Under the pieces are notes generated by a model. The model saw nothing but the letters and a program-made list of their open reading frames with translations, did no database searches and was not told the origin of the DNA. 39,941 nucleotides of DNA from a virus: positions 1-39,941 of the IMG/VR virus record IMGVR_UViG_3300049847_000087, one strand, 5' to 3'. The translations under genes were made by a program, and so were the position numbers. Position 1 is the stretch's first letter; the number at the start of each line of letters is the position of its first letter. Below are positions 20,210 to 39,193 of this stretch, one piece after another.

Positions 20210-20767
20210 TTAGGCTCCGGTAAAACGGTTGCGGATGCAAACGATCATGGTAATTCGCTCTTTGTCGCTGTCATTGATAACCCAATGCGATATCGCATTG
20301 TTGAATCTGTAGCACTCACCCGGTTCCGCCGAAAGCATCTCCGTATCCACATGGAAACTTTGACCCGCAGCACTGGCGATCTGCACGGCGTATTTGTCAT
20401 AAAAGTTCGGATGCCACCCTTGATCTATATGCGGATGACACTGCTTGCCAGCCGGTAGCCTGGTAATCAACACCATCCCTAACCGTTCGCCATCCACATA
20501 GCGCATCAGATCAAAAACGATAGGCAATACTGATGGAAGCTTCTCAGTGTTTGGATACCACACCGATTCGTGTGGCAATCCAAACGACTCCCGATCAGAA
20601 AAATTTTCACGAGCATTGCACCGAACCACAATGTCAGACATATCCCGGTGCGGGGACTGCGATGGCGTCGTGCGAAATGGGAACTCGTCCCACAATTCCG
20701 AATGTGCTTTCAGTTCTGCTACTAGCGGCGTTACGTCAAACCGCCACGGCATCAGTTCAAGATGCAT
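20210..20767 (-). CDS. aspartyl/asparaginyl beta-hydroxylase-like dioxygenase
   Basis: A 185-residue protein with the 2-oxoglutarate/Fe(II) facial triad in the right layout: H113-x-D115 in HPHIDQGWHP, distal H161 in NNAISHWVIND, and R171 ten residues later as the 2OG carboxylate ligand. Fold, length and motif wording match the aspartyl/asparaginyl beta-hydroxylase family. It would hydroxylate a protein side chain or another small target using O2. It overlaps the sulfotransferase-like gene upstream by 16 nt and starts the ejection block, so the target could be a virion protein. The target itself is inference. Confidence 0.8.
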   Translation of the reverse strand: MHLELMPWRFDVTPLVAELKAHSELWDEFPFRTTPSQSPHRDMSDIVVRCNARENFSDRESFGLPHESVWYPNTEKLPSVLPIVFDLMRYVDGERLGMVLITRLPAGKQCHPHIDQGWHPNFYDKYAVQIASAAGQSFHVDTEMLSAEPGECYRFNNAISHWVINDSDKERITMIVCIRNRFTGA

Positions 20768-21222
20768 CCGCGCTTCCGAAGGAACTTGTGCACATCACGC
20801 TCAATCCGCATCTCACTGAACTGTGCCACACGTTCAGGCATCTGACCGCCACGCGTCAGCGACCACAGCAATGTCAGGTATTGCGTATCCCCAAAGTTCT
20901 CATGTTTGAGAACTGTCGCATCGGGAGTACTCTTACGCAGCAAGTCCTGTTCTGCCACCGCATCAATAATCAGACCGAAACGGGCCGACGAAACCATGAT
21001 TTCAGCAGGGTCACGCTCTAGCCGGAAACACCGCACGCCTTTCGGTGGCGGAAGTAATCTGTAAGCGGATGTATCCACCGCCCCCGCGTAGTGCCCGTCG
21101 TGCAATCGTTCAACCAAAGTTTCCGCCGACATATCGGCTAGCGGTTCGTGCGGCACATCGAGAAAAGTGGCGAGCCATGCCGTCCCCGAGCGAGGCAACG
21201 CATAGATTAAAAACGGCGTCAC
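20752..21222 (-). CDS. sulfotransferase-like protein
   Basis: A 156-residue protein with a PAPS-binding 5'-phosphosulfate loop near the N-terminus (LPRSGTAWLATFL, residues 9-21) and a 3'-phosphate-binding element (R70, DPAEIMVSS, Ser78/79). Both are hallmarks of the P-loop sulfotransferase superfamily. It is shorter than usual family members (often 250 or more residues), so it may be a minimal form or be inactive. It is coupled to the hydroxylase-like gene. A sulfate acceptor made by hydroxylation (a new OH group) would make chemical sense, but this is a hypothesis. Confidence 0.75.
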   Translation of the reverse strand: MTPFLIYALPRSGTAWLATFLDVPHEPLADMSAETLVERLHDGHYAGAVDTSAYRLLPPPKGVRCFRLERDPAEIMVSSARFGLIIDAVAEQDLLRKSTPDATVLKHENFGDTQYLTLLWSLTRGGQMPERVAQFSEMRIERDVHKFLRKRGCILN

Positions 21223-34917: not shown

Positions 34918-35337
34918 TTATTGCGATGCAGAACGAAGGTCATCCCTGACGATCGCCACATCCCGCTCAGAAACGAGCAGATGCACTGAGCCATCAATGA
35001 TGATCTGCTGAAACATGTAACCGCCGATCTCCAACCCTCCCAGTTCCACGACATCCCCCACCTTCACTTGGGTGGGAATGAATACGTCTGAGAGCCAGGT
35101 CTTTTTGCGGTCCGGGCTGTATTCGCGCCGGTACTTACCCGGGCCGACCGCGAGAACCTCCCCGCGGACCGGATAACCCTGCCGGATGGCGACGAGGGTA
35201 GATGAAGCGTCCCATTCCATAGGGCGGATAAGCAGATGGTCTTGGGTGGGGCGAAGCCGTTCTCCGGGCTGGAGAAAGTCCGGCCGGGAGCGGTCAATTC
35301 GTACCCCATCACTTTTTGCGCTTACGATACTCGGCAT
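34918..35337 (-). CDS. GroES-like co-chaperonin
   Basis: A 139-residue protein with the Cpn10 sequence pattern: LRPTQDHLLIRPM (residues 28-40), a mobile-loop region with hydrophobic patch (DASSTLVAI, 43-51), PVRGEVLAVGPGKY (56-69), VKVGDVVELGG (91-101) and the closing VHLLVSERDVAIV. Host GroES is about 97 residues; the extra length is an N-terminal extension and a longer loop (about 70-90). It may replace host GroES to fold phage proteins, as T4 gp31 does for its coat. It lies immediately before the terminase genes and overlaps a 46-residue gene by 29 nt. Confidence 0.82.
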   Translation of the reverse strand: MPSIVSAKSDGVRIDRSRPDFLQPGERLRPTQDHLLIRPMEWDASSTLVAIRQGYPVRGEVLAVGPGKYRREYSPDRKKTWLSDVFIPTQVKVGDVVELGGLEIGGYMFQQIIIDGSVHLLVSERDVAIVRDDLRSASQ

Positions 35338-35891: not shown

Positions 35892-36241
35892 ATCAGTTCC
35901 ACCCGCACGATACAGCGAGGGTTTTTCGGATCAGGCATCAGCCGATCTATCTCCAATCGGACGATTTGGGAATCATCGCCAAACACTCGCGCATGCTGTA
36001 GCGAGTCCAACAACCCCTTGATTGGGTTATCTATGTCCCGTTTCCGATAGTCCGGAGGATGGAGGGTGATGGCAATCGTCAGCGGACCTAACAGGATGCG
36101 CTTGCGGGGCCCGGTTTTGTTGAAGGCGGCGAGCACCTCGAGACGGAAGGCTAGGGCTTTATCGGTCAGGAAGTTTCGCGTGCCGTTGCGTCCCCAATAG
36201 TGATTTATGGAGGGCGGATAGGGCAGCGAAAGAAACGTCAT
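35888..36241 (-). CDS. rusA: Holliday junction resolvase RusA
   Basis: A 117-residue protein, the usual size. Start at the ATG at 36241, overlapping the previous stop; upstream in-frame codons give a non-conserved extension. The catalytic acidic set is present: KRDIDN (D69, D71) and GDDSQI (D89, D90). PPSINHYWGRNG near the N-terminus is also typical. It cuts four-way junctions and debranches DNA before packaging. It lies between an HNH-type nuclease and the Q-like gene, as in the lambdoid nin region. Confidence 0.93.
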   Translation of the reverse strand: MTFLSLPYPPSINHYWGRNGTRNFLTDKALAFRLEVLAAFNKTGPRKRILLGPLTIAITLHPPDYRKRDIDNPIKGLLDSLQHARVFGDDSQIVRLEIDRLMPDPKNPRCIVRVELI

Positions 36242-36909
36242 CCGACCGGCCGGTAGACCGCCGGCAGGTAAGCATGGATGCCGCGTTCCGCTGCCCACTC
36301 CCACAGCCGCTTCGGTTCCAGATCGTAGACATGTTCCACGTGAAACAACTCCCGCAGTTTCCCCCATGCCCAATCCTCCACGGCTTGCAGTCGGTATAAG
36401 TCCCAGGTCTCGCGCGGCCACAGAGCAGTTTCCCCTTTGGCGTGCTGAATCGAATGGTGGAAGTGACACAGGGGAATCGCAGAGTACGGCGGCTTGATCC
36501 CAACCCCCGCACCATCGGCAATCCTTCGAACGTGCGCCGCCACCACATCGCCCTGACAATGGCCTAGATCAGATGCGGCACAGGGTTGAGTCGCAACCCA
36601 GCGTAGAAACTCGGCATCCGGCCCGATCCGCTTCCATACTTCAGGCGCCCGGCAGAACCCTGACAGTCGCAGGACTCGTGCTTCTTGGCCGTAAGGATGC
36701 CGGGAAGTCGGAGTGCTGAGGAGGGACCGTTCCTCGGCTGCGGATGGGGCCTCCGACCTCCCGGACAAATCGAGCGGTGCAATCGCCACGGATTGACCTA
36801 TTTTCAGAACCCACAACGGAACGTGTTCAGTGGGTAAATCTACGCTGAGACGGGTTGAGCCGTCCACCAGGGAGCGATAGCCGGCGATTTGCGCGGCGAT
36901 AGCGGTCAT
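36238..36909 (-). CDS. HNH-like nuclease (DUF968-like)
   Basis: A 223-residue protein. N-terminal 45 residues (IAGYRSLVDGSTRLSVDLP) resemble a small beta domain found at the front of phage nucleases. The C-terminal half has an HNH/beta-beta-alpha-metal arrangement: C110...C118, AAHVRRIADGAGVGIKPPYS with H126, then IPLCHFHHSIQH (C148, H151, H152, H156). This fits DUF968-like recombination nucleases located in nin-type regions. The middle (50-80) is low complexity. Overlaps rusA by ATGA. Confidence 0.7.
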   Translation of the reverse strand: MTAIAAQIAGYRSLVDGSTRLSVDLPTEHVPLWVLKIGQSVAIAPLDLSGRSEAPSAAEERSLLSTPTSRHPYGQEARVLRLSGFCRAPEVWKRIGPDAEFLRWVATQPCAASDLGHCQGDVVAAHVRRIADGAGVGIKPPYSAIPLCHFHHSIQHAKGETALWPRETWDLYRLQAVEDWAWGKLRELFHVEHVYDLEPKRLWEWAAERGIHAYLPAVYRPVG

Positions 36910-36910
36910 A

Positions 36911-39193
36911 TCAAAGTCGTCCCATCGGAGCGAATCGTTTGCCTATTTCCGCGAGATTTCCCTTGTAGGCAACAATAACCTTTTGCTCGCGCTTTGGAAA
37001 CTTGCGCAAGTGGAGCGTTTTCTTAGCATGTGCTAAACGAGTGAATTCACTTTCCAGATAAACGATCTTGTTGTAGACCGAAAGCCCCTCGTTCTTGAAA
37101 AACAATTCATGCTCGGCTTCGCAACAGTAATAAGCCCCATTCTTATCCCTGCTATCACCAGTGATTACCACGAAAAAACAATTGTCATTGAGGTGAGAAA
37201 TCGCCTTTCGATAGCCTGAGAACAATAATTCCCTGAATTCTGCATATGTCGGGCATGAATTTATTTCTCCAGGAGGAGGCTTGCCGTCATAATCAAGGTA
37301 CTTTTCAACCTTATAGTACGGCGGACAGGTAAACACGAGATCGAACATCCCATCCGGTTCAAAGATTGAACTGTCGCTTTGAATCCATTTCACGCTCTCA
37401 AATTCGCTGCACAATTTATTGTTCGCATCGCACTGATTACGCCTGATCTCGCTGGCAACATATTCATACCCGCAGCCACCCGACACATACCCCATCTGCA
37501 CCCCGCCGCCGAAGGGGTTGTAGACGCGCCGTCCATCGCGGGGCATGAAAAATCGAGCAATGACTTCGCACGCAACGGGATCGAGAACGGAGGCATTTCC
37601 ATTATGGGCGCGCCCCTCTTCCTTGCCGGGTTTTGTGGGGTCTTTCGTCACCACATTCGCCATGCCCTGCGTCCCCTGCCAGCACCCCTCACGGGTCGCA
37701 AAAGCTGCGTTCGGCACTCCATTGCGTTCGCCCGCATCGTCAATGCGCTTGCGCCATTCGGCCTTTGACCGCAGCCAATCACCTTTCACTGAATTCCACA
37801 CGTTCGTCATTGTGATGTGCGCCAAATACTTCATGCGCATGGAGGCGATATCTCCCTTCACCATGTAGTGAAATCCTGACATTTTCAGGTACGTCACAAA
37901 CCCGAGAGACTCAAAAAGCGCAGGGGTCTCGAACTTGCTCTTCGGGTCCGTTGTGATCATCGACGGATAATCATAGGTGTTGCGAGCAATCACCTCTCGC
38001 GCTAGCTGCGCATATAACTCGTGAGTGAATACCGCGGGGTCAATGACAGATTGCAGAAGGCAAAATTCCCGGCTGACATGATTGACTTGAAAGGTGAAAA
38101 ATCCGCTGAACTCGCCATTTACCTTAAGAATGATGGCCGAATGAATTTGCATATTCTTACGCGCTGCACGCTTCGCGATAACGTCAGCGATAGCAAGCCT
38201 ACTCACATCGGCCTCATATCCTGAGCCGATCACCTTCTCGACATATACCCATTCGACTTCCTGCGGAAACAACGACAAATTGTCGAGATAAGTTTCCACA
38301 GGCAGTCGTGTTTCTATTTTCGGTCCACTTTCTAACGCTTCCATATGAGCCCCACATTGATCGGCACAGCCAGCACACACCCCTAGGTATACGCCGCGGT
38401 TATGTAGGGAAATTGATTTACCACCGCCGACAGCCCCCACAATTCTGTCAACGATCAAATGCCCATCGATCACCCGTTGATCGGTCGAAGGAATTCGTAA
38501 CGGATTATCTATATTTGGCTGCAATTCGAGCAGCATTTCCTGCGTTTTACGCCGTTCAATCCCCCACGCCGTAGCACCGAAATTGCAGGTCACAACCCGC
38601 GCAACACTTTTCAGGCCGGCGCCTCTGATGCGCTCTATTTGTCGCAACCTATGCCTTAATTCCGCAGGGGTATCTAAGGCGCTCACCGAGGTATTGATTA
38701 CCGCTCGCACCGCGAGAAGTCGTGTCAAGTGTGCATCGGATAACTTTTGCCAATGCTTCGTGATGATTACCGGGTGCTTTCCAGTTGATTCGAGCATTTC
38801 ACAAACTGAAACGGTGTTTTCCCAATCGCCGCACGGATCGCCTGCCGTTCCGACGCGATACCAGTTAGTGCGGAAATCCCGCACCGTTTTCCATACCTCG
38901 CGCCATGACCAAGGTGCGGGCTTTCTTGACACCGATACGGTGAAGTCTCGCCCGTAGCGCTTGGCGGTCGTCGCGGCATAACAGGCTCCGTAACACCCGG
39001 TGCCAGGATACGCTGCCATGCCACTGTGGCAACCTTTCACCGTGTCAACATCAAGTACGCCCTTCAAGTTTTCCTGAGCCGTCAGAATGGGGCGATATGG
39101 TAGATTTATTCCTTCAACGAATGTCGTTTGCACAACGACATGCGGATGAAATTCCAATACTTGCTCCGCTGATTGCTGGCATTCGACGCTCAC
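36911..39193 (-). CDS. radical-SAM-like/GNAT/DNA methyltransferase fusion
   Basis: A 760-residue, three-part protein. Part 1 (about 30-300) has a Cys cluster of the type C55-x11-C67-x3-C71 in GTGCYGACYAATTAKRYG, then RVGTAGDPCGDW and VIITKHW, an order like that of DUF5131/radical-SAM TIM barrels, and a second cluster VCAGCADQC (C273, C276, C280). Part 2 (about 315-447) is GNAT-like, with LKVNGEFSGFFTF and PALFESLGF. Part 3 (about 490-745) is an amino-methyltransferase: YNPFGGG (558-564, SAM site) before FTCPPYY (621-627, catalytic motif IV). The order I then IV suggests a gamma- or alpha-like layout. GTG start with GAAGG 7 nt upstream. A DNA base hypermodification enzyme is the best reading; which base and which group are unknown. 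Confidence 0.75.
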   Translation of the reverse strand: MSVECQQSAEQVLEFHPHVVVQTTFVEGINLPYRPILTAQENLKGVLDVDTVKGCHSGMAAYPGTGCYGACYAATTAKRYGRDFTVSVSRKPAPWSWREVWKTVRDFRTNWYRVGTAGDPCGDWENTVSVCEMLESTGKHPVIITKHWQKLSDAHLTRLLAVRAVINTSVSALDTPAELRHRLRQIERIRGAGLKSVARVVTCNFGATAWGIERRKTQEMLLELQPNIDNPLRIPSTDQRVIDGHLIVDRIVGAVGGGKSISLHNRGVYLGVCAGCADQCGAHMEALESGPKIETRLPVETYLDNLSLFPQEVEWVYVEKVIGSGYEADVSRLAIADVIAKRAARKNMQIHSAIILKVNGEFSGFFTFQVNHVSREFCLLQSVIDPAVFTHELYAQLAREVIARNTYDYPSMITTDPKSKFETPALFESLGFVTYLKMSGFHYMVKGDIASMRMKYLAHITMTNVWNSVKGDWLRSKAEWRKRIDDAGERNGVPNAAFATREGCWQGTQGMANVVTKDPTKPGKEEGRAHNGNASVLDPVACEVIARFFMPRDGRRVYNPFGGGVQMGYVSGGCGYEYVASEIRRNQCDANNKLCSEFESVKWIQSDSSIFEPDGMFDLVFTCPPYYKVEKYLDYDGKPPPGEINSCPTYAEFRELLFSGYRKAISHLNDNCFFVVITGDSRDKNGAYYCCEAEHELFFKNEGLSVYNKIVYLESEFTRLAHAKKTLHLRKFPKREQKVIVAYKGNLAEIGKRFAPMGRL

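Follow-up and report, generated by a model that had tools for sequence, protein, structure and literature searches.

A phage protein family joining radical-SAM, GNAT and methyltransferase folds as a plausible nucleobase hypermodification system

Results

A single viral gene encodes a 760-residue protein for which structure prediction gives three folded parts in one chain: N, with a radical-SAM fold, G, with a GNAT fold, and M, a class I methyltransferase. The three-module arrangement is kept, or swapped piecewise, in about 88 viral loci, and decoration of phage DNA bases is therefore the probable role. The balance tips modestly towards an enzyme with which the phage hypermodifies nucleobases, most likely those of DNA. 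There is strong evidence that a radical-SAM partner is part of the G-M system.

The gene lies at 36911..39193, minus strand, of the window, by which we mean the whole 39.9 kb viral record analysed here. It starts with GTG at 39193, stops at 36911 and overlaps the stop of the upstream ORF by four bases (39190-39193). The frame contains no internal stops, and the plus strand of the same interval is closed by stops. Pfam and NCBIfam gave no above-cut-off match anywhere along the 760 residues; N and G are matched by no family of either library, and PHROGs see only the last third of the protein, as a phage DNA methyltransferase. The full-length model has a pLDDT of 84 and a pTM of 0.63. A preliminary description of this DNA had proposed a single protein made of radical-SAM-like, GNAT-like and DNA methyltransferase parts. 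One intact ORF with three different predicted enzyme folds agrees with that proposal. The landmarks it named (C55/C67/C71, C273/C276/C280, PALFESLGF, NPFGGG and CPPYY) are all at the positions it gave, and conservation of the cysteines and of NPFGGG/CPPYY in the N and M alignments is far above chance.

The window also encodes a P22-like portal, a large terminase, RusA and a Q-like antiterminator. An HNH-endonuclease-like gene with a weak PHROG_131 match lies directly downstream of the fusion gene (36238-36909, minus strand), and HNH genes are also found near several of its relatives. Between the RusA/Q and terminase genes there is a GroES/Cpn10-like co-chaperonin (34918-35337, minus strand), sub-cut-off in Pfam. 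In the structural block an Asp/Asn beta-hydroxylase-like gene (20210-20767, minus strand) overlaps a weakly sulfotransferase-like gene (20752-21222, minus strand).

The N domain (residues ~30-285; 38339..39106, minus strand) is predicted to be a divergent, SPL-like radical-SAM partial TIM barrel. Its fold was predicted on its own from 50 sequences, with a mean pLDDT of 91.7 and a pTM of 0.88, and consists of six strand-helix units in a (b/a)6 barrel. The best 26 Foldseek matches in the PDB are all radical-SAM enzymes, with modest scores (best E 2.6e-3, TM 0.3-0.5). All 50 matches listed by VIA structural alignment are also radical-SAM enzymes; the closest solved fold among them is spore photoproduct lyase (SPL, 4fhf; Z 12.8, rmsd 3.8, 218 residues aligned, 14% identity). 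Matches among viral structures are mostly proteins annotated as radical-SAM. Foldseek and VIA therefore both bear out the radical-SAM-like character that had been suggested for the N-terminal half, and where the preliminary description called for a TIM-barrel or iron-sulfur fold in residues 30-300, a partial TIM barrel is what the model contains. Its DUF5131 label for N was rejected: neither the window protein nor any of the 50 N domains matches this family in Pfam at E<=1. The same search gave 0/50 matches to PF04055 (Radical_SAM). A sequence search of solved structures returned no match for N or G.

Six cysteines stand out in the alignment. C55 is kept in 49 of the 50 N domains, and C67, C71, C273, C276 and C280 in every one. 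Their spacing is C-X9..11-C-X3-C followed by C-X2-C-X3-C, and the first of these departs from the CX3CX2C that is canonical for radical-SAM proteins. In the window protein the first group is C55-X11-C67-X3-C71 (38981..39031, minus strand), a candidate [4Fe-4S]/SAM cluster loop. C55 comes right after strand 1 in the model, with C67 and C71 ahead of the next long helix, and we infer that the three are cluster ligands. Residues 117-120, AGDP (38834..38845, minus strand), may correspond to the GGE motif of radical-SAM proteins; G118 and P120 are invariant and D119 is kept in 49/50. The second group, C273-X2-C276-X3-C280 (38354..38377, minus strand), lies between N and G. By analogy with the Elp3 linker, it may form a second metal site, either an auxiliary Fe-S cluster or Zn.

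The middle of the protein (G, residues ~311-451; 37841..38263, minus strand) has a GNAT fold by VIA structural alignment, as the preliminary description had it. Over residues 310-449 the full-length model superposes on GNAT enzymes with Z 14-16, among them 1xeb (Z 16.3, rmsd 2.0, 130 aligned), ElaA 5z6n (Z 16.1), and NatC and GCN5 (14-16). The acyl-CoA pyrophosphate loop Q/RxxGxG/A is absent from the G domain of the window protein and from 87/87 G domains of G-M proteins, so that the catalytic role of G is uncertain. One locus has a stand-alone G paralogue immediately after its G-M gene (L161:5254-5871); unlike all G domains of G-M proteins, it carries a GxG acyl-CoA-type loop (KWKGNGLA) and has a sub-threshold Pfam Acetyltransf_1 match. 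Kinship of G with Mu Mom had also been suggested. Profile comparison does not bear it out, since hhalign against an 11-member Mom alignment gave a probability of 0.1% and no alignment.

The C-terminal part (M, residues ~470-760; 36914..37786, minus strand) is a Rossmann methyltransferase, as judged from PHROG matches and VIA, with motif I preceding motif IV. The SAM-binding motif I is NPFGGG (residues 559-564; 37502..37519, minus strand) and motif IV is CPPYY (residues 623-627; 37313..37327, minus strand), in which Cys replaces D/N/S. Both are invariant or nearly so across the M alignment. M matches the profiles PHROG_498 (E 3e-33) and PHROG_12517 (E 3e-35), scores below the Pfam cut-off for PF01555 N6_N4_Mtase (12.2 bits vs 26.7) and has a single match in the sequence search of solved structures, 2zie (E 0.018). 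Its sequence relatives are phage proteins that combine ParB with a PF01555 methylase, and of these B054, ZRG1 and P2559S pass the PF01555 cut-off. The methyltransferase assignment of the preliminary description thus stands, with M grouping with the phage ParB-DNA-methylases through PHROG_498 and a shared CPPY motif. In structure the nearest relatives are others: residues 451-746 of the full-length model align to Trm11, TrmN and Trm14 at Z 16-18 (VIA), the closest solved fold to M being the tRNA methyltransferase Trm11 (5e71, Z 17.7).

In two cultured phages, Pseudomonas phage ZRG1 (L176:3494-5339) and Croceibacter phage P2559S (L177:3482-5123), a gene for AdoMet decarboxylase (PF02675) follows and overlaps the M-related ParB-methyltransferase gene, a hint that some phage modification pathway draws on decarboxylated SAM or a polyamine. 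PF02675 is found in 0/35 records (the window and records with relatives), and decarboxylated SAM as a co-substrate of M was therefore dropped for the N-G-M family.

A search with the full-length protein found 44 viral contigs, in most of which the match starts at residue 33, and searches with N and G profiles raised the relatives to 77 loci and 234 matches. Reduced to distinct sequences, the census holds 88 G-M loci. N is fused to G-M in 46, replaced in five and not seen in six; in the split loci its gene adjoins G-M, just upstream in 20 and just downstream in 11. The preliminary description had called for a search for other phages with the same or a split architecture, and the census contains both. 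For five of the six loci with no visible N the reason is that the contig ends there. The one clear exception to the coupling is L026, which has G-M but neither an N-like nor a PF04055 match in its whole 40.8-kb record. Across the loci found, G and M always stay together.

The five replacement proteins are encoded downstream of G-M and carry GCQHxCxYCYA, which is the CX3CX2C motif. Each has a PF04055 match at E<=0.1, the lowest E being 9.5e-12; for the one tabulated, the score is 33.1 bits and the cut-off 29.5. Their genes hold the place that N has in the 11 loci with G-M followed by N; in these five loci a genuine radical-SAM protein therefore stands in for the missing N. Direct comparison of N with the replacement proteins by hhalign gives a weak match that lies mostly in the barrel (E 6e-4, probability 30%). 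Two of the five weakly match the PHROG label 'DNA repair photolyase'. Phage scaffold MT835521 (L190:3315-4837) encodes a homologue of the replacement proteins (63% identity). Its gene, a canonical radical-SAM gene of SplB-like type, follows a C5-cytosine DNA methylase gene at a distance of 53 bases, and no G or M was found within 4 kb.

On a maximum-likelihood tree of 83 G-M sequences the fused state changes 16 times, with well-supported branches forcing at least 12 of these changes, and the replacement state five times, at least three of them forced. A constant G-M core around which fusion, fission and replacement recur looks like the mark of a working functional link. The census and the repeated changes on the tree are the reason for assigning the radical-SAM partner to the system. 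It is almost always supplied, whether fused, adjoining or as a canonical replacement. Outside phages the family is scarce in what was searched: within the one bacterial phylum sampled, N and G occur in 1/395 genomes, on a contig assigned to Smithella that bears phage-type genes and has the fused arrangement (L173). A scan of bacterial genomes gave two loci, one of them on the Smithella contig. A plasmid search returned one M-like match and nothing more.

Genes for replication and recombination (YqaJ/RecE-type exonuclease, DnaB, primase) surround the relatives, and in some loci genes for DNA modification are found nearby. Two TAGT DNA glycosyltransferase genes lie directly upstream of G-M in L036, a DpdA gene (7-deazaguanine insertion in DNA) comes right after the M end in L041 (865-1686), and C5 methylase genes are among the neighbours in L037 and L054. 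In L099 (943-3788) a ParB protein, an FkbM methyltransferase, a TAGT glycosyltransferase and a frameshifted N-domain gene stand in a row, which looks like another DNA hypermodification cluster. Phages often carry DNA-modification genes, and the neighbours described here are present in a handful of loci only, which does not amount to statistical proof.

Discussion

DNA hypermodification is the leading and a plausible reading of these data. M would bind DNA and SAM and act at an exocyclic amine or at a group placed there. N would cleave a second SAM at the C55/C67/C71 cluster and so make a carbon radical on the base, on a base methyl or on a small carboxylate, while G would handle or position a small group of acyl type, in the way that the KAT domain serves Elp3. 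The modified base would then bear more than a methyl and shield the phage DNA against nucleases of the host. That N cleaves SAM, that DNA is the target and what kind of group is added are all our extrapolation from the folds and motifs. More specifically, N and G might use radical chemistry to place a carboxymethyl-like group, derived from an acyl, on a DNA base, with M recognising or capping the site; this version is tentative and we consider it rather doubtful. We know of no phage with an N-G-M gene that has been grown.

RNA could be the target instead, given that the closest solved fold to M is Trm11. The same radical-SAM/GNAT/methyltransferase logic would then work on tRNA, tuning translation or evading tRNA-cutting defences. 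Elp3 combines a radical-SAM domain with a GNAT and works on tRNA (PMC13315578, PMC6367351). It makes cm5U34, after which a methyltransferase such as Trm9 acts, and the best fold matches of M (Trm11/TrmN/Trm14) fit such a scheme. We nevertheless think it unlikely, as the sequence relatives of M are phage ParB-fused PF01555 DNA-methylase proteins, DNA-modification genes are found among the neighbours of relatives, and none of the family matches of 75 members at E<=0.1 is to ELP3. A plainer enzyme, in which M alone gives the product (N6-methyladenine, for example) and N and G are degenerate or regulatory, would account for the GNAT loop lost in all G domains and for the atypical Cys spacing of N. 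It accords poorly with six cysteines that are invariant in 49-50/50 N domains, with a canonical-cluster radical-SAM protein replacing N in five contigs and with the many conserved polar residues held by G, and we give it a somewhat smaller chance than an RNA target.

The likeness of N to SPL, a DNA-repair radical-SAM enzyme, raises the matter of repair or de-modification, in which N would remove or split a lesion or a host-placed mark and M would then protect the site; the photolyase label on two replacement proteins points the same way. SPL-type enzymes, however, are not known to need a GNAT or a methyltransferase partner, and the systematic coupling seen here suggests synthesis, not repair, so that we regard this explanation as improbable. 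The least probable of those considered, by a little, is a protein-modifying enzyme or anti-defence effector aimed at host proteins. GNAT folds commonly act on proteins and seven members have weak matches of the PrmC type (protein glutamine methyltransferase), but the nearest sequence families of M are phage DNA methylases.

Whichever target applies, the analysis names a phage-restricted enzyme family of about 88 distinct loci (234 G-domain matches across the collection), which escapes current libraries because its first two domains are in no Pfam or NCBIfam family. The occurrence of N as a fused, split, downstream or swapped partner amounts to a natural experiment linking a phage methyltransferase with radical chemistry. 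If DNA is modified, as we favour, a radical step would be added to phage DNA camouflage, a new nucleotide would be possible, and the tRNA wobble chemistry of Elp3 would be linked to DNA modification. Radical transfer by N and G, if true, would be the first case known of radical chemistry of the Elp3 type acting on DNA, with a hypermodified nucleotide made by one chain.

Comparison with known systems

Mu Mom belongs to the GNAT superfamily and modifies adenine of phage DNA (PMC7824862). It resembles the fusion protein in being of GNAT type, but has no radical-SAM or methyltransferase domain. The phage ParB-methyltransferases (PHROG_498, PF01555 type), such as Listeria phage B054 gp77 and Enterococcus phage phiFL3A gp36, are from cultured phages and share with M the motif order and CPPY(Y/F), whereas ParB takes the place of N-G. 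SPL, which acts on DNA, provides the closest solved fold to N, with 13-14% identity. SPL and SplB-like proteins differ in having CX3CX2C where N has C-X9..11-C-X3-C plus C-X2-C-X3-C, and are without GNAT or methyltransferase. In Synechococcus phage S-B43, CmoX/CmoA/CmoY form a 5-carboxymethyl-dC pathway (PMC12783734). There, phage DNA is hypermodified by a methyltransferase fold together with RNA-modification enzymes; the route is carboxy-SAM chemistry on cytosine C5, and the paper mentions neither a radical-SAM nor an acetyltransferase partner (PMC12783734). In the open-access literature we found no radical-SAM/GNAT/methyltransferase fusion, nor a radical-SAM step in such phage systems. The earlier remark that no three-part enzyme of this kind has been described therefore holds as far as we found, though radical SAM plus GNAT is known in Elp3.

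Elp3 is a single chain of radical-SAM domain, linker with three conserved cysteines, and GNAT (PMC6367351). It makes carboxymethyl-uridine (cm5U34) in tRNA, the radical site receiving acetate from the GNAT (PMC6367351, PMC13315578), and in eukaryotes partner methyltransferases complete the product (PMC6367351, PMC13315578, PMC3110198). The fusion protein has the same order of radical SAM, three-Cys linker and GNAT in one chain. Elp3 differs in acting on tRNA, and the fusion protein in the missing acyl-CoA loop of G and in a G that is always joined to M and never to N alone. By sequence the window protein is not classed as an Elp3: it leaves TIGR01211 (ELP3) unmatched at E<=1. The ELP3 matches in the sampled bacterial phylum are all below the ELP3 cut-off. 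Elp3 is absent from the 50 VIA matches listed for N and from those listed for the full-length model, which speaks neither for nor against a structural relation. Judged by domain order, Elp3 appears to be the best mechanistic parallel, and the fusion protein may work like it.
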